Positions 6,739 through 26,549 of a stretch of DNA of 64,000 nucleotides are shown in pieces. Under the pieces are notes generated by a model. That model saw only the letters and a program-made list of their open reading frames with translations. It did not search any database and was not told the origin of the DNA. The position numbers and the translations under genes were made by a program. This DNA comes from Alterluteimonas quercicellularis (lineage in GTDB: Bacteria; Pseudomonadota; Gammaproteobacteria; Xanthomonadales; Xanthomonadaceae): positions 124,001 to 188,000 of the forward strand of contig NZ_JAIWPR010000002.1 of assembly GCF_021191635.1 (NCBI RefSeq), given 5' to 3'. Position 1 is the stretch's first letter. Every line of letters begins with the position of its first letter.

Positions 6739-8055
6739 TCAGTGGGCGTGGGCGACCGGGCGTTCGCCGCCGGGGCGCAGCAGCGCGACGAAGCTGCCGA
6801 GGGCGAGCACGCCGAGGCAGCCGGCGGGGACCAGCATGGCGATCGCGGGCGCGCCGCCGTGGCGGGCCACCCACGGCATCAGGTTCTGCGCGATGAAGCC
6901 GCCGATGCTGCCGATGGTGGAGATCAGCGCGATCCCGCCCGCGGCCTGCGCGCCGCTGAGGGTGCGCGAGGGCAGCGGCCAGAAGCACGGCAGCAGCAGC
7001 GAGATGCAGGGCGTGCCGATCAGCAGGCCGAGGAAGCGGACCGTGTTGCTGTCGGCCTGGGTGGTGACCACGAACGCGACCACGCCCACCGCCGAGGCGA
7101 CGGCCATGCACCACGTCGAGCGCCGCTCGCCCTCCAGCCGCTTCGGCAGCCACAGCAGCAGCACCGTGGTCAGGGCCCACGGGGCGGCGCTCAGCAGGCC
7201 GTTCGTCGCGCTGCCGACGCCGAACGCGCGCACCACCGTCGGCGTCCAGTAGATGACCCCGTACAGCGAGATCATGATCAGGGTGTACACGCCCGACAGG
7301 AACAGCACCCGGCCGCTGAACAGCGCGGAGAGCATGGAGCCGTGCCGCGCGGGCTTGGCCCGGGCTTCCTCCTCCAGCGTGCGCACCAGCCAGGCGCGGT
7401 CGGCGTCGCCGAGGAAGCGCGCGCTCTGCGGGCCGTTGGGCAGCCATTTCATCACCACGAACATCATCAGGAACGCGGGCACGCCGGTGGCGATGAACAC
7501 CCACTGCCAGCCGTGCAGGCCGAGCAGGCCGTCCAGTTCCAGCAGCGGCCCGCCGACCAGCGCGCCGAACATGTTGCCCAGCGAGCTGCCCAGGGTCAGC
7601 ACCGCCACCGCGCGCACGCGGTAGGCCTGCGGGAACCACAGCGTGATGTAGAAGACCAGGCCCGGGTAGGCGCCGGCCTCGGCCGCGCCGAGCAGGAAGC
7701 GCAGCGCGCCGAACATGGTGCCGCTGTGGGCGAAGCCGAGCGCGATCGTGACCGCGCCCCAGGTGCCGAGGATGCGCGCCAGCCAGAGGCGCGCGCCGAA
7801 GCGGTTCTGCGCCAGGACGCTGGGCACCTCCAGCAGCAGGTAGCCGATGAAGAACAGCGACGAGGCGAGGCCGTAGGCGGTCTCGGTCATGCCCAGGTGG
7901 CCCACCATCTGCAGCTTGGCGAAGCCCACGTTCTGGCGGTCGATGATCGCCAGCAGGTAGATGGCCGTGACGAACGGCATGATCCGCCAGAACACCTGGC
8001 GCATGAGCCGGGCGCGTTCTTCCGGCCGTCCCTCCGGCATGTAGTCGGTGTGCAT
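6739..8055 (-). CDS. MFS permease, anion:cation symporter (ACS) family
   Basis: A 438-residue protein with about twelve hydrophobic segments. N-terminal ACS hallmarks are present: MPFVTAIYLLAIIDRQNVGFAK, SLFFIGYLLLEVPS and RFLLGAAEAGAYPGLVFYITLWFP. ACS permeases take up organic anions such as hydroxyphenylacetate, phthalate, tartrate or galactonate with protons. The strong SD GGGAGGGG before the ATG at 8055 fixes the start. It lies 59 bases downstream of the flavoenzyme gene in the same operon. It is the likely importer of the compound degraded by the aldolase/hydrolase/flavoenzyme set. Confidence 0.92.
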   Translation of the reverse strand: MHTDYMPEGRPEERARLMRQVFWRIMPFVTAIYLLAIIDRQNVGFAKLQMVGHLGMTETAYGLASSLFFIGYLLLEVPSVLAQNRFGARLWLARILGTWGAVTIALGFAHSGTMFGALRFLLGAAEAGAYPGLVFYITLWFPQAYRVRAVAVLTLGSSLGNMFGALVGGPLLELDGLLGLHGWQWVFIATGVPAFLMMFVVMKWLPNGPQSARFLGDADRAWLVRTLEEEARAKPARHGSMLSALFSGRVLFLSGVYTLIMISLYGVIYWTPTVVRAFGVGSATNGLLSAAPWALTTVLLLWLPKRLEGERRSTWCMAVASAVGVVAFVVTTQADSNTVRFLGLLIGTPCISLLLPCFWPLPSRTLSGAQAAGGIALISTIGSIGGFIAQNLMPWVARHGGAPAIAMLVPAGCLGVLALGSFVALLRPGGERPVAHAH

Positions 8056-19196: not shown

Positions 19197-20603
19197 ATGG
19201 CCCGTCCCGACACGAAGTCCTTCGGTCTCCTGCGCGCCTGGCCGTCCGCGGCGCTGCTGGCGCTCGCGCTGTCGGCCTGCATGAGCAGCAGCGAGCCGCC
19301 GGTCGACGACACCACGCAGGTCCCGCCCGCGGCCAGCGACGACCCGGCCACGTCGGGCGAGTACCCGGTCGGCACCGGGCCGGACCCGGTGCTGCCCGAG
19401 CCGGACGAGTCCGCGCTGCCGGTGGTCGAGATCGCGCCGGCGGTGGGCTGGCCCGAGAACGCGCAGCCGGCGCCGGCGGCGGGGTTCGCGGTCACCGCGT
19501 TCGCGCGCGGGCTCGACCACCCGCGCACCGTGACCGTGCTGCCCAACGGCGACGTGCTGGTGGCCGAGGCCAACAAGCCCGAGGCCCCGGGCACGCCCGG
19601 CCCGAAGCAGCTGGCGATGAACGCCGTGCAGAAGCGCGCCGGCGCCGGCGTGCCGAGCGCGGACCGCATCACCCTGCTGCGCGATGCCGACGGCGACGGC
19701 GTGGCCGAGGAGCGGCACGTGTTCCTCGACGGCCTCACCTCGCCGTTCGGCGTCGCGCTGGTGGGCGACACGCTGTACGTGGCCAACGCCGATGCGCTGG
19801 TGCGCGTGCCCTACGCCGAGGGCGCCACCTCGATCGACGCCACGCCGGAGAAGGTGGCCGACCTGCCGGCCGGCCGCAACCACCACTGGACCAAGGCGCT
19901 GGTGGCGAGCGCCGACGGCAGCCGGCTCTACGTCGGCGTCGGCTCCAACAGCAACATCGCCGAGCACGGCATGGAGGAGGAGGTCGACCGCGCCGCGGTG
20001 CTGGAGGTCGACCCGGCCACCGGCGCGGTGCGCAACTACGCCTCCGGCCTGCGCAACCCCACCGCGCTGGCGATCCACCCGCACGACGACGCCCTGTGGG
20101 CGGTGGTCAACGAGCGCGACGAGATCGGCAACGACCTGGTGCCCGACTACCTGACCTCGGTGCGCGAGGGCGCGTTCTACGGATGGCCCTACAGCTACTT
20201 CGGCCAGCACGTGGACACCCGCGTCGAGCCGCGGGCCCCGGACCTGGTCGCCAGGGCCATCGCGCCCGACTACGGCCTCGGCTCGCACGTGGCGCCGCTG
20301 GGCCTGGCCTTCTATGCCGGCGATGCGCTGCCGGCGCGCTACCGCGAGGGCGCCTTCATCGGCCTGCACGGCTCGTGGAACCGCAAGCCGAAGGTCGGCT
20401 ACTCGGTGGTGTTCGTGCCGTTCTCCGGCGGGCGGCCGTCGGGTCCGATCGAGACGGTGCTGGGCGGCTTCGTCAACGACCGCGGCGACGCCCAGGGCCG
20501 TCCCGTCGGCGTCGCGGTGGACGGGCGCGGCGGGGTGCTGGTGGCCGACGACGTCGGCAACGCGGTCTGGCGCCTGCAGCCGGCCGGCGCCGGCGCGCGC
20601 TGA
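19197..20603 (+). CDS. Lipoprotein with sorbosone dehydrogenase-like beta-propeller
   Basis: A 468-residue protein with a lipoprotein signal ([10 protein letters not shown], Cys28), a long Pro/Asp-rich linker to about residue 85, then a six-blade GDH/sorbosone dehydrogenase-type propeller. Visible blade motifs are [120 protein letters not shown] and [19 protein letters not shown]. Family members are periplasmic PQQ-linked aldose or sorbosone dehydrogenases, though many homologues are uncharacterised. No PQQ genes are in the window. The gene stands alone. Confidence 0.9.
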
Positions 20604-20762
20604 CGAGAACCTTTCGATGCGGGTCGGCGGCCGGCGCGGAGCGCTGCGCGCGGCCGCCGCCGCCGCGAGGCGCGGCCGCGGTCCGGATTCCGGGCGCCCG
20701 GCCGCGACATGGCCGCAGCGCTGCGGCTAAGATCGCGCTTCGCCATCCGGGGGAGTGCGGTG

Positions 20763-22331
20763 ATGTCGATCCGAAAGCGCGCGGCCGCCGCCGCGCTCGT
20801 CGCGTGCCTGGGCGCCGCGGAACTGCAGGCGCGCGAGGCGTCTCCGCGTCCCGAGTACGCCTTCTCCACCGCGGACGCGTTCGACGCCTCCGCGGTGCCG
20901 GCCTACGCCGGCGACCACGGCGACGTCTACGCGCGCATCGAGGCCGACCTCGACGCCCATGTCGCCCACCTGCAGCGCTGGGTGCGGCAGCGCTCGGTCA
21001 GCGCCCAGGACGACGGCATCGACGCGATGGCGCGGCTGGTCGCCGACGACCTGTGCGCGCTCGGGTTCCAGGAGGTGCGGCTGGTCGAGACCCCGGGCCA
21101 TCCCGGCGTGCTCGGCCACTACGACGCCGGCGCGCCGCGCACGCTGGTGGTCTACATGATGTACGACGTGCAGCCGGTGGAGCCGAACTGGCGCATCGAC
21201 GATCCGTTCGCCGGCGAACTGGTCGAGCACGAGCTCGGCACGGTGCTGATGGCGCGCGGGGCGACCAACCAGAAGGGCCCGCAGCGCGCCTTCCTCAACG
21301 CCATCGACGCCATCCTGGCGACGCGCGGCACGCTGCCGGTGAACCTCTACGTCGTCGCCGAGGGCGAGGAGGAACTGGGCTCGCCGAACTTCGGCGCGGT
21401 GCTCGCCCCCTGGGTCGACCGGCTGCGCGAGGCCGACGGCGCGTTCTTCCCGATGAACATCCAGGGACCGAAGGGCGACGTGGCGCTCAACCTGGGCGTG
21501 AAGGGCATCGTGTACTTCGAACTGGAGGCGCGCGGCGGCGAGTGGGGCGGCCCCGGGCGCTCGGAGATCCACGGCTCGCTGAAGTCGCTGGTCGATTCGC
21601 CGGCGCTGCGGCTGGTGCAGGCGATCGCCTCGCTGACCACGGCCGACGGCAACACCATCCTCGTGCCCGGCTACTACGACGCGGTGCGCGCGCCCACGCC
21701 CGACGAGCAGCGGCTGGTCAACGCGCTGGCCTCGACCGCGGACGAGGCCGCGATGCAGGCCAGCCTCGGCGTCTCGCGCTGGATCGACGGGCTGCAGGGG
21801 CGCGAGGCCATCGTGCGCAACCTGTACGACCCTACGCTCAACATCAACGGGATCTGGAGCGGCTACACCGGCGAGGGCATGAAGACCATCCTGCCGCACG
21901 TGGCCACCGCGAAGATCGACTCGCGGCTGCCGCCGGGCCTGGAGCCGGAGGCCGCCTACCGGATGATCCGCGCCCATCTCGACGCGCAGGGTTTCCGGGA
22001 CATCGAATTGCGGCCGCTGTCGGGCTACCCGGCCGCGGCCACGCCGGTCGATGCGCCGCTGGTGCAGGCGGCGCTGGGCGTCTTCAACAAGTACGGCGCG
22101 CAGCCGCGCGTCGCGCCCTGGCTGGGCGGCAGCGCGCCGTTCTACCAGTTCACCCGCACCCTGGAACTGCCGTTCGTGTTCGGCGGCCTGGGCCACGGCT
22201 CGGGCGCACACGGCCCGGACGAGTACATGCTGATCCGCCCGGCCGAGGGCGTGGCCGCGGCCGGCCTGGCGGAGATCGAGCGGTCCTACGTCGACCTGCT
22301 GCACGCGCTGGCCGAGGACGCGGCGCAGTAG
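20763..22331 (+). CDS. Exported M20-family peptidase homologue with altered metal site
   Basis: A 522-residue protein with a signal peptide (AAAAALVACLGAAELQA), starting 5-10 bases after a GGGGAG SD. The M20 di-zinc fold is recognisable: VYMMYDVQPVEPNW, MARGATNQKGPQRAFLNA, VVAEGEEELGSPNFG, AKIDSRLPPG and GLGHGSGAHGPDEYM. In typical members the first motif is GHxDVQP and the second GATDDKG. Here the metal-binding His is Met133 and the bridging Asp is Asn169, while Asp135 and Glu202-204 are kept. It may be inactive, use one metal, or have another role. It is likely periplasmic. Confidence 0.88.
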   Translation: MSIRKRAAAAALVACLGAAELQAREASPRPEYAFSTADAFDASAVPAYAGDHGDVYARIEADLDAHVAHLQRWVRQRSVSAQDDGIDAMARLVADDLCALGFQEVRLVETPGHPGVLGHYDAGAPRTLVVYMMYDVQPVEPNWRIDDPFAGELVEHELGTVLMARGATNQKGPQRAFLNAIDAILATRGTLPVNLYVVAEGEEELGSPNFGAVLAPWVDRLREADGAFFPMNIQGPKGDVALNLGVKGIVYFELEARGGEWGGPGRSEIHGSLKSLVDSPALRLVQAIASLTTADGNTILVPGYYDAVRAPTPDEQRLVNALASTADEAAMQASLGVSRWIDGLQGREAIVRNLYDPTLNINGIWSGYTGEGMKTILPHVATAKIDSRLPPGLEPEAAYRMIRAHLDAQGFRDIELRPLSGYPAAATPVDAPLVQAALGVFNKYGAQPRVAPWLGGSAPFYQFTRTLELPFVFGGLGHGSGAHGPDEYMLIRPAEGVAAAGLAEIERSYVDLLHALAEDAAQ

Positions 22332-22352
22332 GCGCGGCGCGTCCTGCGCAGC

Positions 22353-22919
22353 GTGGAAGCGCCCCGGCGGCCGGGCGGCGGGTTCCGCACCCGTCGCCTG
22401 CGGCTGTGCCCGCTCGGCGCCGGCGACCGCGCGCTCTACGTCCGGCTCTACGGCGACGCCGCCGCCATGCGCCATGTCGGCGCGGCGCTGGCCCCGGCGG
22501 CGGCCGAGCGCGCCTTCGACGCGGTGCTGGCCGCGCTCGCCGGCGATCCGCCCGCGGCCGTCTACTGGGTGCTGCGGGAGGCGGCGACGGACGAGGCCTT
22601 CGGGCTGATGGCGCTGGCCTTCGATGCGCGGCGCACGAGCGCCGAGCTGGGCCTGGTGCTGCCGCCGCAGCGGCAGGACCGCGGCTACGCCAGCGAGGCG
22701 ATCGGCGGCCTGCTGCCCAGGCTGCGGGCGTTTCCGCGGCTGGCCTCGGTCTGGACCCGGCACCGCGAGGGCCACGCCGCCGCGGCCGGGCTGATGCGGC
22801 GGACGGCGTTCGCCCCGGACGGGACGCGCGACGGCTACGCGCACTGGCGCCTGGCCCGCGCCGAGTGGCCGCCCGACGCGGCCGGCCCGGGCTTTGCATC
22901 GGTGCCGGAACGCGAATAG
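22353..22919 (+). CDS. GNAT N-acetyltransferase (RimJ-like)
   Basis: A 188-residue protein beginning at a GTG, since no ATG precedes the domain. The GNAT fold is seen in FRTRRLRLCPLGAGDRALYVRLYGD, AELGLVLPPQRQDRGYASEAIGGLL (acetyl-CoA pyrophosphate loop variant QRQDRGYASEA) and the C-terminal strand RDGYAHWRLARAEW. It probably acetylates a protein N-terminus or small amine in the cytosol. It starts 21 bases after the peptidase stop and may be read through from it. The promoter of the borosin genes overlaps its 3' end. Confidence 0.85.
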   Translation: MEAPRRPGGGFRTRRLRLCPLGAGDRALYVRLYGDAAAMRHVGAALAPAAAERAFDAVLAALAGDPPAAVYWVLREAATDEAFGLMALAFDARRTSAELGLVLPPQRQDRGYASEAIGGLLPRLRAFPRLASVWTRHREGHAAAAGLMRRTAFAPDGTRDGYAHWRLARAEWPPDAAGPGFASVPERE

Positions 22920-22922
22920 AGT
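22894..22922 (+). promoter_or_regulatory. Candidate sigma70-type promoter for the borosin genes
   Basis: TTGCAT at 22894-22899 and TAGAGT at 22917-22922 are separated by 17 bases, inside the end of the acetyltransferase gene. A transcript would start near 22930, just ahead of the SD and the ATG at 22948. Confidence 0.4.
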
Positions 22923-22947
22923 CACACTTCGGGAGCAGGGGAACGGC

Positions 22948-23766
22948 ATGGGCGGAAGCGGACGACTCGCCTGCGTGGGGCTGGGCATGATGCTCGGGGC
23001 GCATCTCGCCCCGCGCGCGCGCAGCCACATCGAACAGGCCGACGTGGTGTTCGCCGCGGTCTCCGATCCGCTGGTCGAGCTGTGGGTGCAGCGCATGCAC
23101 CCCGACGTGCGCAGCCTGCAGCCCTGCTACGCGCCGGGCCGGTCCCGCCACGACAGCTATCGCGACATGGTCGAGGCCATGCTGGCCGAGGTGCGCGCGG
23201 GGCGCTCGGTGTGCGGCGCGTTCTACGGCCACCCGGGGGTGTTCGCCACCGTCCCGCACCGCGCGGTGGCGCAGGCGAGGGAGGAGGGCTTCGAGGCGCA
23301 CATGGAGCCGGGCATCTCCGCCGAGGACTGCCTCTACGCCGACCTCGGAATCGACCCCGGCCTCGTCGGCTGCCAGCACTACGAGGCCAGCCAGTTCATG
23401 TTCTACCGGCGCCGCATCGACCCCTCCGCCTACCTGGTGCTGTGGCAGGTGGGGGTGGCCGGAGACCGTTCGGTCAGCCGCGCCGCGACCGGGCCGGCGC
23501 ACCGCCGGCTGCTGGCCGAACGGCTGCGCGAAGATTATCCGGCCGAGCACACCGTGTGGCTCTACGAAGCTGCTACGCTGCCGATCGCCGTACCCCGCAT
23601 GGACGCCCTGCCGCTGTCCGGGCTGGCGGACGCCGGGACCGCCCAGCACACGACGCTCGTCGTGCCGCCGGCGGCGCCCCTGCAGCGCGACGAAGCGATG
23701 CTGGCGCGGATCGCGGAACTGGAGTGTCACGACCACTTGTTGGCCGGTGCGCCGGCCGGAAACTGA
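22948..23766 (+). CDS. Split-borosin alpha-N-methyltransferase (SonM-like, tetrapyrrole-methylase fold)
   Basis: A 272-residue SAM-dependent methyltransferase. The fold is that of tetrapyrrole methylases (LACVGLGMMLGAHLAPRARSHIEQADVVF; VCGAFYGHPGVFATVPHRAV; AHMEPGISAEDCLYADLGIDPG; EASQFMFYRRRIDPSAYLVLWQVGVAGD). These blocks match, as I remember it, SonM of Shewanella, which N-methylates the backbone of a separate precursor peptide (split borosin). Tyr61, Arg67, Tyr71 and Tyr93 fall in the positions of the borosin active-site Tyr/Arg residues. The SD AGGGGA precedes the ATG. The next gene, 21 bases away, encodes a fitting precursor. No cobalamin or siroheme genes are near, which argues against a tetrapyrrole role. 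Confidence 0.92.
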   Translation: MGGSGRLACVGLGMMLGAHLAPRARSHIEQADVVFAAVSDPLVELWVQRMHPDVRSLQPCYAPGRSRHDSYRDMVEAMLAEVRAGRSVCGAFYGHPGVFATVPHRAVAQAREEGFEAHMEPGISAEDCLYADLGIDPGLVGCQHYEASQFMFYRRRIDPSAYLVLWQVGVAGDRSVSRAATGPAHRRLLAERLREDYPAEHTVWLYEAATLPIAVPRMDALPLSGLADAGTAQHTTLVVPPAAPLQRDEAMLARIAELECHDHLLAGAPAGN

Positions 23767-23787
23767 CGGGGAAAAGGGGGAACTGCG

Positions 23788-24081
23788 ATGTCGGATGCGA
23801 TCGGCTTTCTGGACACGATGGGGCGGGGCGCCTTCGCGGCGGACCCGGGCGGCGCGTACGCGGAAGCGGTCGACGCGCTGGAGATCGACGACGGCCAGCG
23901 CGCGGCGCTGCGCGCGCGCGACGCCGCGGCGCTCGGCCGCCTGCTGCAGGCGCGGGCCGCGACCACGTGCCTGATCATGACACCGGACGGCGGCGAGCCG
24001 CTGGACGCACCGGACGACGACGACCGCGGCCAGGACGACGACGACCGGGACGACGACGCGCCCCGGCCGCAGCCCGACTGA
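23788..24081 (+). CDS. Split-borosin precursor peptide (SonA-like) with Asp-rich tail
   Basis: A 97-residue protein with a strong SD (AAGGGGG). Residues 1-56 form a small helical domain of the borosin-binding type (MSDAIGFLDTMGRGAFAADP; YAEAVDALEIDDGQRAALRA; DAAALGRLLQA). A short hydrophobic core follows at residues 59-66 (TTCLIMTP), the same place as the methylated YLVIS segment of SonA. Leu62, Ile63 and Met64 are the likely N-methylation sites. The tail (residues 67-97) is highly acidic, with DDDDRGQDDDDRDDD at 76-90. It is almost certainly the substrate of the upstream methyltransferase. What happens to the tail (proteolysis, metal binding or export) is unknown. Confidence 0.88.
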   Translation: MSDAIGFLDTMGRGAFAADPGGAYAEAVDALEIDDGQRAALRARDAAALGRLLQARAATTCLIMTPDGGEPLDAPDDDDRGQDDDDRDDDAPRPQPD

Positions 24082-24113
24082 TCCGGCCGCCACCGCCGGG
24101 AACCGAACACGGG

Positions 24114-25973
24114 ATGTTCGCGCCTCTCGCCAGGATGCTGCTGCTCGCGCTGCTGGCGTCGCTCGCCGCGACGCCGGCCGCGCTGCGTGCGCAGGAAGCG
24201 TCGCTCGACGCCCTGCTGGCGGAGGCGGAGGCGGTCCGCACTTCCGACCCGCAACGGCTCGATGCGCTGCTGCCGAGGATCGACGCGCTCGCGGCCGCGG
24301 GAGACCAGGCCCAGCGCACCCGGGCGCGGACGCTGCGCGCGCATCGCCTGATCACCCAGGGCGACAGCGAGGGCGCGGTGCGGATCCTGCGCTCGATCCT
24401 CGACGACGGGCTCGATGTCCGCTCGCGCTTCGTCGCCGCCTCGATGCTCGCCAATACCTACGCCATCCTGCGCCGCTTCGAGGAATCGCTGCAGACGATC
24501 GAGGGGATGGCGCCGCTGTATCCCGAGATCCGCAATCGCGAACTGCTGCACCGCGGGCTGATGGTCGCCGCGGTGGTCTACAACCAGGTGGGCGAGTTCG
24601 AGCTGGGCAAGCGCCACGCCGAGCGGGTGATCGCCGACGCGCCCGACGGGCGCAACCGCTGTGCGGCCGGCAGCGTGATCATGGAAGCGCGGATCGGCCT
24701 CGGGCAGATCTCGGGCGATCGCTACGCCGGGCAGGCGCTGCGCAGCTGCATCGCGGTCAAGGAGCCGATCTTCACCGGCTTCATCCGGCTGCACACCGCG
24801 CGCGAATGGGCCTTCCTGGGCCGGCTCCAGGAAGCGGCGGACCTGCTCGACCGCCACCTGCCCGAGGTCGAGGCGATCGGCTATCCCTACCTCATCGGCC
24901 AGTACCACGCGCTGCTGGCCGAGTACCGCCTGCAGCTCGACCAGCCGCAGTCGGCCAAGGCGCATGCGGACGAGGCCGCGCTGCACAGCGCCTCGATCGC
25001 CAGCTCCGAGGCGCTGGTGAAGGCCTACGGCGTGCTGTTCTCGCTGGCCGAGCGCGAGGGCGATCCGGCGACGGCGCTGGCGGTCTACCGCCGCTTCGCC
25101 GAGGCCGACCGCGCGCACTTCAGCGACGTCAAGTCGCGCGAGATGGCCTACCAGATCGTGCGCCACCAGTCGCAGCAGCAGGCGCAGCAGATCGAGCTGC
25201 TCAACCAGCGCAACGCCCTGCTGGAGCTGGAACAGCGCGTGGCGCGGCAGCGTGCGCGGGCCTGGCTGGTGCTGACGGTGCTGCTGGCCGGCCTGCTCGC
25301 CAGCATCGGCTACTGGGCGCTCAAGACCAAGCGCCTGCAGATGCGCCTGAAGCGCATGGCCGAGACCGACATGCTCACCGGCGTCGGCAACCGGCACCAC
25401 TTCACCCAGGAGGCCGAGCGGCTGCTGGCGCAGTGCCGGCGCGAGCACCGCGTCGCCGCGCTGCTCGCCTTCGACCTGGACCACTTCAAGCAGGTCAACG
25501 ACCGCCACGGCCACGCGGCCGGCGACTGGGCGCTGCGGCAGGTCGCCGCCGTCTGCCAGGCGCTGTGCGGACCGCACGACCGCATCGCCCGGCTCGGCGG
25601 CGAGGAGTTCGCGATCCTGATGCCGGGCCGCGATGCCGTCGCGGGCCGGCGCGTCGCCGAGGAGGCCCTGGCCCGGCTCGCCGGGATCGACGCCGCGGGG
25701 GCCGGCTACGACTTCCGGATCAGCGCCAGCATCGGCGTCACCGATACCCATCTGTCGGGCTACGGGCTGGAGCGGATGCTCTCGCACGCCGACCGCGCCA
25801 TGTACGCCGCCAAGCGCGCGGGCCGCAACTGCGTGTACGAGGCCGACGGCGGCAACGGCGTGCGCGCCGTCGCCTGGCTGGGGATCGCGGGCGAAGCGGA
25901 CGCCGCGGCGCCGGACGCGGGGACGGCGCCCGGGGCCGCGTCGACGCGCAGCGCGCTCGCGTCCCGAGCGTAG
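24114..25973 (+). CDS. Membrane diguanylate cyclase with periplasmic TPR domain
   Basis: A 619-residue protein. A signal peptide (MLLLALLASLAATPAALRAQ) is followed by a TPR-like helical sensor (about residues 30-370), a coiled-coil (QQQAQQIELLNQRNALLELEQRVA), one membrane segment (AWLVLTVLLAGLLASIGYWAL) and a C-terminal GGDEF domain (MLTGVGNRHHF, FDLDHFKQVNDRHGHAAGDWALRQVA, RLGGEEFAIL). The GGEEF motif predicts c-di-GMP synthesis. No Arg of a canonical RxxD inhibitory site is present upstream (CGPHDR), so product inhibition may be absent. It begins 32 bases after the borosin precursor gene and may be co-transcribed. Its TAG stop is part of a REP-like GTAGGAGCGCG. Confidence 0.93.
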   Translation: MFAPLARMLLLALLASLAATPAALRAQEASLDALLAEAEAVRTSDPQRLDALLPRIDALAAAGDQAQRTRARTLRAHRLITQGDSEGAVRILRSILDDGLDVRSRFVAASMLANTYAILRRFEESLQTIEGMAPLYPEIRNRELLHRGLMVAAVVYNQVGEFELGKRHAERVIADAPDGRNRCAAGSVIMEARIGLGQISGDRYAGQALRSCIAVKEPIFTGFIRLHTAREWAFLGRLQEAADLLDRHLPEVEAIGYPYLIGQYHALLAEYRLQLDQPQSAKAHADEAALHSASIASSEALVKAYGVLFSLAEREGDPATALAVYRRFAEADRAHFSDVKSREMAYQIVRHQSQQQAQQIELLNQRNALLELEQRVARQRARAWLVLTVLLAGLLASIGYWALKTKRLQMRLKRMAETDMLTGVGNRHHFTQEAERLLAQCRREHRVAALLAFDLDHFKQVNDRHGHAAGDWALRQVAAVCQALCGPHDRIARLGGEEFAILMPGRDAVAGRRVAEEALARLAGIDAAGAGYDFRISASIGVTDTHLSGYGLERMLSHADRAMYAAKRAGRNCVYEADGGNGVRAVAWLGIAGEADAAAPDAGTAPGAASTRSALASRA

Positions 25974-25981
25974 GAGCGCGC
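25970..25981 (+). repeat. Truncated REP half-site (GTAGGAGCGCGC)
   Basis: The first 12 bases of the local GTAG REP element, in the convergent junction between the GGDEF and VOC genes. The TAG is the stop codon of the GGDEF gene. Confidence 0.6.
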
Positions 25982-25984
25982 GCC

Positions 25985-26413
25985 CTAGAACGTCACCCGG
26001 ATCGACTCCGCGCTGCGCTGCGACGGACCGTGGTACACGGCCTCGATGTTGTTGCCGTCGGGATCGATGACGAAGGCGGCGTAGTAGCCCGGGTGGTAGG
26101 GCCGCTCGCCCGGCGCGCCGTTGTCGGTGCCGCCGGCGGCGATCGCCGCGCGATGGAAGGCCTCCACCGCGGCGCGGTCGCGCGCCTGGAAGGCGAGGTG
26201 GTGGCGCCCGGTCGGCCGCCCCAGCGCGGCCTCGCTGCCGGTGCTGGAAACGAACAGTTCGTCGGCCCAGAAGTAGTCGTCGCCCGTGCCGCCCATGGGC
26301 ACGCCCAGCGCGTCGAGCACTGCGGTGTAGAAGCGGCGGCTGGCCTCCAGGTCGCGCACGACGAGCTGCAGGTGGTCGATCAGGCGGCCGCGGTGGATTT
26401 CCTCGGTGTCCAT
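25985..26413 (-). CDS. VOC-family (glyoxalase/dioxygenase superfamily) protein
   Basis: A 142-residue protein with two beta-alpha-beta-beta-beta modules. The metal-site residues lie in IDHLQLVVRDLEASRRFYTAVLDALG (His), TGRHHLAFQARDRAAVEAFHRAA (His) and YYAAFVIDPDGNNIEAVYHG (Glu). These are the hallmarks of small cytosolic VOC enzymes such as lactoylglutathione lyase-like proteins, but the reaction cannot be assigned. It is monocistronic and convergent with the GGDEF gene. Confidence 0.92.
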   Translation of the reverse strand: MDTEEIHRGRLIDHLQLVVRDLEASRRFYTAVLDALGVPMGGTGDDYFWADELFVSSTGSEAALGRPTGRHHLAFQARDRAAVEAFHRAAIAAGGTDNGAPGERPYHPGYYAAFVIDPDGNNIEAVYHGPSQRSAESIRVTF

Positions 26414-26549
26414 GGGCGTGTTTCCGGGGTAGGCGAGGCAGGTATATCACCGCCGGCGCGGCATGTCCCCCGGCGAGCGCGGGCGCGCTGTCTACGCGGC
26501 GCGGGGGGCGGTATCCTGTGCGATCAACGACGCGTCCGGAGTCTCCGCT

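Follow-up and report, generated by a model that had tools for sequence, protein, structure and literature searches.

Gene organization of the locus

The window analyzed here is a stretch of 64,000 nucleotides from Alterluteimonas quercicellularis (contig NZ_JAIWPR010000002.1, positions 124,001 to 188,000; host genome size 4.5 Mb), within which we describe a run of genes that joins a putative split borosin system, namely a backbone N-methyltransferase and a separately encoded precursor peptide, to a sensor diguanylate cyclase. The interest of the locus lies in this constant cyclase partner rather than in the split borosin as such. Three genes on the forward (+) strand form the subject proper: the SonM-type alpha-N-methyltransferase (22948..23766, 272 aa from its ATG), delimited by its open reading frame (ORF) and by PDB and Pfam matches; the borosin precursor (23788..24081, 97 aa), recognized from its ORF and from homologues beside the enzyme; and the sensor diguanylate cyclase (24114..25973, 619 aa), assigned by a GGDEF match and by comparison across loci. 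These are preceded on the same strand by an M20 peptidase (20709..22331, Pfam) and a 188-aa GNAT acetyltransferase (22353..22919; Acetyltransf_3, Pfam E 1.6e-13). From the peptidase to the cyclase the successive gaps amount to 21, 28, 21 and 32 bases.

An original prediction, made from the sequence of the window, had taken the methyltransferase and the precursor for a stand-alone pair of genes under a promoter of its own. This is not supported: the GNAT ORF ends 28 bases upstream on the same strand, a scan for the sigma-70 consensus found 0 sites in 20400-26500, and the two genes belong to a conserved group with the GNAT and cyclase genes. The start that the prediction gave, 22894, is that of an upstream TTG extension of the frame, the ATG start lying at 22948, and its statement that no cobalamin genes lie nearby holds within the five scanned genes of the run. 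It had omitted the neighboring cyclase gene, which bears most on function.

The methyltransferase

Sequence comparison gives good support to the enzyme being a SonM-family split-borosin methyltransferase equipped with the active-site and clamp residues. Its top PDB match in phmmer is SonM (7ltc_A, E 8.4e-73, 248.6 bits, residues 5-255 aligned), in agreement with the original prediction, the named sequence blocks of which are all present; the matches that follow are MroMA and OphMA, with a precorrin methylase last of the 26 (E 0.0045). In the phmmer alignment Y61, R67, Y71, F99 and W166 of the window enzyme correspond to Y58, R67, Y71, F99 and W166 of SonM, which are assigned to catalysis and clamp closure in the passages of PMC8429565 used here, and all five are invariant in the 14 aligned enzymes (14/14). 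A cobalamin or tetrapyrrole methylase was considered and rejected: the best NCBIfam precorrin scores are 18.5 and 16.3 bits against cut-offs of 391 and 163.25, and Pfam returns only the superfamily TP_methylase (E 4.4e-22). Among named relatives the nearest enzyme is that of Luteimonas huabeiensis (90% identity), and the family, fused forms included, is found in 39 of the 52 genomes of the host's own genus.

The precursor peptide

Twenty-one bases beyond the enzyme, as had been predicted, lies the gene of a small precursor with a helical domain followed, from residue 59, by TTCLIMTP at the place of the core in SonA. Its parts are a helical leader domain of the borosin-binding type (residues 1-55, 23788..23952), delineated by model and profile; a predicted core TTCLIMTPD (residues 59-67, 23962..23988), placed by alignment to SonA and by column conservation; and an Asp/Glu/Pro-rich C-terminal tail (residues 68-97, 23989..24078). 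Iterated searches of six-frame ORFs found a homologue adjoining the methyltransferase in 73 of 75 loci that carry the enzyme, and the linkage of the small gene to this methyltransferase family, on which the original prediction had staked itself, is thereby borne out. The loci with no recognized precursor are L055, in which the contig stops inside the cyclase, and L071, with a weak match only (E 0.2); that of L075, from Shewanella corallii, scores E 0.025 with the precursor profile and is included in the 73 through a direct match to SonA.

Single-sequence searches of Pfam, NCBIfam and PDB with the precursor gave no match. A profile of 58 precursors, from which the Shewanella rows had been excluded together with the second rows of L020, L038 and L041 and the row of L006 (none of these four from Shewanella), retrieves SonA first in PDB (E 0.001), co-linear from residue 1. 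An earlier profile of 66 of the 82 distinct precursors gave SonA at E 1.7e-7, a value that is partly circular since this profile held the close SonA relative of L075 and three more Shewanella rows. The AlphaFold2 model of the precursor, built from the same 66-row alignment with its Shewanella rows, has helices at residues 4-12, 20-30, 35-42 and 46-52 and then an extended tail, with a predicted local distance difference test score (pLDDT) of 79-93 over residues 1-50. The top 16 chains found with it by Foldseek are all of OphA, dbOphMA or SonA, all at E above 1, and re-alignment of 40 chains places SonA at the top (Z 4.5, which is low for a helical fold; root mean square deviation 3.6 over 68 residues, 2-70 on 3-71).

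This structural alignment would set L62 (23971-23973) and M64 (23977-23979) on the methylated L63 and I65 of SonA, and the pattern of the latter suggests, by analogy, methylation at L62 and M64 rather than at I63; of the three candidates originally put forward, Leu62, Ile63 and Met64, the outer two are thus retained. Among 84 precursors, 63 have Cys in core column 61, 74 have I, V or L in column 63, and 72 have P or A in column 66. The placement of the core is supported by a similar unit, C-x-V-x-TPE, repeated four times in the precursor of locus L133. Taken together, a borosin-binding-type domain followed by a core at the L63/I65 place of SonA is well supported by profile and model, and the pair in the window very probably represents a genuine split borosin, a kind that is already known and occurs widely.

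As judged by eye from the alignment, most relatives have an acidic tail behind the core. A long lysine-rich, histone-H1-like repeat takes its place in L044 (uncultured Steroidobacter) and L047 (Povalibacter uvarum). A further subtype (L113, L134, L135) has precursors that end in a short hydrophobic stretch (NFIVL, QFIII), and the fetched stretches around it contain no such sensor cyclase.

The sensor diguanylate cyclase

The protein downstream of the precursor is predicted from its sequence to be a membrane diguanylate cyclase that synthesizes cyclic di-GMP (c-di-GMP). It displays, in order, a signal peptide (residues 1-26, 24114..24191), a tetratricopeptide repeat (TPR) sensor domain (residues 31-315, 24204..25058), a single transmembrane helix (residues ~385-403, 25266..25322) and a GGDEF domain (residues 418-578, 25365..25847; Pfam E 1.1e-36) with an intact GGEEF motif; the first and third of these were located by hydropathy and the second by sequence comparison. 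The model of the whole protein has a pLDDT of 91. The GGEEF motif is present in the 74 loci with a cyclase, save L055, at a contig end, and L075, which has SGEEF. Among the 85 cyclases of the window and the 75 loci, hydropathy finds the transmembrane helix in 84 and a hydrophobic N-terminal segment in 67, the latter count depending on start codons picked by script. Seventeen GGDEF genes are found in the host's own genome, and only 1 has a TPR sensor of this type.

The TPR domain contains two cysteines, C183 (24660-24662) and C212 (24747-24749), which are present in 85/85 of these cyclases and in 28/28 from stretches of further relatives, one of which (L115) repeats a locus of the 75. No other cysteine occurs in the TPR domain of 78 of the 85. 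Such an invariant pair fits a disulfide and hence a periplasmic location of the domain. The model of the sensor resembles peptide-binding TPR proteins: among the matches listed are peptide-bound RapF (312 residues at Z 24.4) and phi3T Rap.

Conservation of the partnership

In 74 of the 75 loci the enzyme is followed downstream, on its own strand, by the TPR-sensor cyclase; in the remaining one, L019, the contig ends first. The loci come from Lysobacterales, Steroidobacter and its relatives, Rheinheimera, Shewanella, Alteromonas and Pleionea, and their titles include, besides the last five genera, Lysobacter, Luteimonas, Pseudoxanthomonas, Dyella and Aliiglaciecola. They are not independent of each other: two assemblies give two loci each (L017/L018 and L058/L060), many are from congeners, and the set of 150 relatives discussed below overlaps them. 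A same-strand GNAT homologue is present in 61 of the 75, upstream of the enzyme in 42 and between enzyme and precursor in 19. The M20 peptidase has a homologue in just 7 of the 75; it was rejected as the maturation protease on this ground and is probably a lineage-limited neighbor outside the conserved module. An anti-phage role was likewise rejected, as the four proteins submitted to PADLOC gave no match.

Presence and absence of the two genes also go together. Among 150 related genomes the enzyme is found in 88 and the sensor in 91, with both in 87 and neither in 58; the discordant cases are the enzyme alone in G073 and the sensor alone in G094, G123, G128 and G141. A Fisher value for this co-occurrence ignores phylogeny and is not taken as a probability. 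Within the 52 genomes of the host's own genus, its own included, 39 have both, 13 have neither and 0 are discordant. A same-strand sensor lies within 6 kb of 96 of 104 enzyme matches, the other eight being five separate places and three pieces of one broken match; conversely, an enzyme is near 106 of 130 sensor matches.

The partnership takes more than one form. In 24 relatives a single open frame of 816-1142 aa takes in sensor, cyclase and enzyme, as judged by equal open-frame lengths, and Pfam finds TPR, GGDEF and TP_methylase, in that order, in the one such protein submitted to it. In 6/6 fetched examples a SonA-like precursor ends just upstream of the single-frame gene. The precursors preceding the single-frame genes of L106-L111 have a core like ATNHTIKAYD. 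Twenty of the 24 single-frame genomes belong to the window's own genus, and G032, G041, G049 and G051 also carry the separate-gene form of the window. Elsewhere the order of the genes is shuffled and the partners are kept, as in L112 (precursor-cyclase-enzyme) and L114 (cyclase-enzyme-precursor-cyclase), and the cyclase stands beside the enzyme in Alteromonas, Aliiglaciecola and Pleionea as well (L071, L073 and L067).

Duplicated pairs and exceptional loci

Most of the 75 loci, 58 in number, have one precursor and one downstream cyclase (1:1). Of the others, with precursors given first, six are 2:2, five 1:2, two 2:1, one 3:1, two 0:1 and one 1:0. The 2:2 loci (L035, L036, L038 and L074 of Rheinheimera, L041 of an unclassified gammaproteobacterial metagenome-assembled genome and L050 of Dyella) alternate precursor-cyclase-precursor-cyclase. 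The paired sensors within them are 25-47% identical and the paired GGDEF domains 88-93%; by comparison, where sensors from different loci are about as far apart, the median identity of the GGDEF domains is 45-60%. The GGDEF value of the five Rheinheimera-type loci is reached by 13 to 30 of 1282 to 1705 between-locus pairs, and that of L050 by 0/102. The 1:2 loci show less of this contrast or none (GGDEF domains 61-76% and sensors 32-70% identical). Divergent input combined with the same output, as read from the 2:2 sequences, is the look that would be expected of two receptors for two ligands.

L009, L020 and L051 have two or three tandem precursors with differing cores, followed by one sensor-cyclase. 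L116 and L119 feature a cyclase that is far from any enzyme yet adjoins a full-length precursor. In L129 (3260-5240, minus strand, genome G013) a 36-aa precursor keeps the core while most of the leader is gone in frame; the sensor-cyclase is open, and the fused methyltransferase is gone in frame except for a short C-terminal piece. This locus gives the impression that what matters is the pairing of core with sensor; it is a single case, in which an assembly error is possible. The opposite combination is offered by L133 (5157-10979, genome G073), where a GNAT protein, the four-core precursor, the methyltransferase, a C39-peptidase ABC (ATP-binding cassette) exporter and an HlyD protein stand in a row with no sensor cyclase; judged from these genes, borosin peptides of this kind may be exported.

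Relationship to known systems

Type IV split borosins were defined with SonM/SonA of Shewanella oneidensis (PMC8429565, as far as its text was compared). The window shares with that pair the separate enzyme and precursor, the enzyme family, the active-site residues, the helical leader and a hydrophobic core at the same place. It differs in that cores of its type often have a Cys and TP(D/E), followed by a long acidic tail (the precursor has 97 aa as against the 71-residue SonA chain), and in the GNAT gene of the cluster; the methylation of its core is a prediction from sequence. The two types meet in L075, which encodes proteins closely related to SonM (E 1.7e-126) and SonA (E 1.1e-18) and, next to them, a TPR-GGDEF protein of the family found in the window. 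Upstream of the SonM homologue there, at 7496-7735, another small SonA-like ORF was noted by eye, so that this locus possibly has two precursors. In the fused borosins of types I-III, such as OphMA, the methyltransferase family and a similar helical part are shared, whereas enzyme and core form one protein.

The words GGDEF, diguanylate and acetyltransferase do not occur in the main text of PMC8429565. A GGDEF domain is named within a borosin architecture in the Figure 1 legend of PMC11395268, which gives it no function. The single-frame proteins of L106-L111 may be of this type, and, as the link of enzyme and GGDEF domain is already in print in that legend, they are not to be called new; in the window, by contrast, enzyme and cyclase are separate genes. 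Literature searches joining borosin with the term diguanylate cyclase found nothing, the split-borosin survey of Imani 2022 lying outside the search, and those joining borosin with Lysobacter likewise found nothing. In the literature passages compared, to which Imani 2022 does not belong, no mention was found of the sensor as a separate, paired gene, of its invariant cysteines, of its joint absence with the enzyme or of the duplicates with divergent sensors.

The RRNPP receptors (Rap, PlcR, NprR, Rgg) provide a parallel for the sensor: they share with it the TPR superhelix, as the RapF match listed above indicates, and in the Rap-Phr systems the receptor is encoded beside its own peptide gene. 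The window sensor departs from them in that its TPR domain should be periplasmic and joined across the membrane to a diguanylate cyclase, and in that its peptide would be backbone-methylated. With a GGDEF effector and a TPR domain that follows a signal peptide it does not belong to the RRNPP receptors, and at most works like one.

Functional interpretation

What can be read from the sequence directly is the predicted enzyme, leader, place of the core, sensor, membrane topology, intact cyclase motif and the stable partnership. We give about an even chance to these genes being a split-borosin cassette tied to a cell-envelope c-di-GMP sensor, in which the modified core is read by the neighboring TPR domain. 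The enzyme, as its sequence supports, should bind the helical domain of the precursor in the cytoplasm and add N-methyl groups to the backbone of TTCLIMTP, in all likelihood at L62 first and at M64 next; the modified core would be cut out, possibly N-acetylated by the GNAT protein, and carried into the periplasm or out of the cell, where its binding to the TPR domain of the neighboring protein would set the activity of the cytoplasmic GGEEF domain. The peptide, most likely the ligand of the sensor, would then serve as a signal, autocrine or population-wide, with c-di-GMP as its readout, in biofilm formation or motility. More tentatively, and with the balance tilting against it, this proposal may be widened: a backbone-N-methylated ribosomal peptide would be a dedicated extracellular signal of Gram-negative bacteria, with a periplasmic TPR receptor and a c-di-GMP output, the peptide-receptor pairs of which duplicate and diverge to new specificities and the receptor of which is sometimes fused to the enzyme.

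Several observations weigh against a peptide-sensing role. In a Mantel-type test on 71 precursor-cyclase pairs, from which the near-duplicates L018, L032, L036, L041, L060 and L062 had been left out beforehand, the divergence of core and sensor is not linked beyond the background (partial rho 0.08 given GGDEF, with 41/500 permutations as high), and the core correlates slightly better with the GGDEF domain (0.26) than with the TPR domain (0.20); as a yardstick, leader and enzyme track each other in the same test (rho 0.52, and 0.48 given GGDEF). TPR proteins other than Rap match the sensor model with higher Z, APPBP2 and APC/C being matched too, and the structural likeness to these and to Rap may reflect a common repeat fold, a fold which, being shared, shows no ligand. 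The pairing is not strict, as five loci have one precursor with two cyclases, three have two or three precursors with one cyclase, and two have a cyclase with no recognized precursor. Sensors far from an enzyme, covered by 17 stretches (18 of 24 matches), have a precursor near them in only 4: L116, L119, L129 (a remnant) and L120 (at a contig end). The six 2:2 loci probably go back to no more than two independent lineages, and their contrast could also have arisen by recombination within the conserved half of the cyclase. Clustering of 31 loci, window included, by frames of at least 110 aa brought out no exporter or dedicated peptidase that is recurrent at the typical locus; beyond enzyme and cyclase it gave only shadow frames of both and families in 6/31 loci or fewer. 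Finally, among 369 genomes drawn evenly from the class the enzyme occurs in 10 and the sensor in at least 4, all 4 within the 10, the sensor search having scored the best 5 candidates per genome, so that some sensors may be missed; for L140-L145, with flanks of only ~1.5 kb, the absence of a sensor rests on that search.

The first alternative reverses the direction of signaling: the TPR domain would respond to some other periplasmic cue, and the cyclase, through c-di-GMP or by contact, would control how a borosin serving an unrelated purpose, for example as an antimicrobial or metal-binding peptide, is methylated or produced. We consider this unlikely, if worth keeping in sight. The single-frame fusion puts the enzyme on the cytoplasmic output side beside the GGDEF domain, as for an effector, the lack of measurable coevolution between core and sensor is in keeping with it, and the frequent core Cys (63/84) could bind metal or form disulfides. 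It sits poorly, however, with the duplicated loci, which double precursor and sensor and not the enzyme, and in which it is the sensor half that diverges, and with L129, which retains core and sensor-cyclase and has lost most of the leader and nearly all of the enzyme.

Less probable still is an ordinary split-borosin cluster, the cyclase of which is a co-transcribed regulator kept by operon inheritance with no direct functional contact with the peptide. Synteny is indeed partly inherited within Lysobacterales, and 6 of the 10 enzyme genomes in the class sample showed no such sensor among the best 5 candidates scored in each. Inheritance of this kind is nevertheless hard to reconcile with the joint absence of enzyme and sensor inside one genus, with their occurrence as one open frame in 24 relatives, with the retention of the partners when gene order changes (L112, L114), and with the cyclase standing beside the enzyme in Alteromonas, Aliiglaciecola and Pleionea. 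Very improbable, lastly, is that the small protein is an uncleaved regulatory subunit, the methylated tail of which has the cyclase or some other protein as its intracellular target, a reading for which the want of a recurrent peptidase or exporter at the typical locus (31 loci) and the long, strongly charged tail after the core (acidic in the window, lysine-rich in L044 and L047) might speak, and against which stand a sensor domain that should by its sequence lie outside the membrane (signal peptide, one helix, Cys pair) and the four core copies with a peptide exporter in L133, which fit a released peptide.

Implications

The passages on bacterial split borosins that we compared describe their enzymology and structures and state no biological role. 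The cyclase partner, present in 74 of the 75 loci, absent together with the enzyme within a genus and in one frame with it in 24 relatives, gives a direct functional hypothesis, from peptide to c-di-GMP. Many natural variants of the core are on offer, most of which have a Cys beside the predicted methylation sites (63/84). Peptide quorum sensing is mostly a Gram-positive affair; the proposal of a cassette read by a periplasmic TPR sensor, if true, would join the chemistry of ribosomally synthesized and post-translationally modified peptides, peptide quorum sensing and the second-messenger control of biofilms, and split borosins of the SonA kind would be pheromones.

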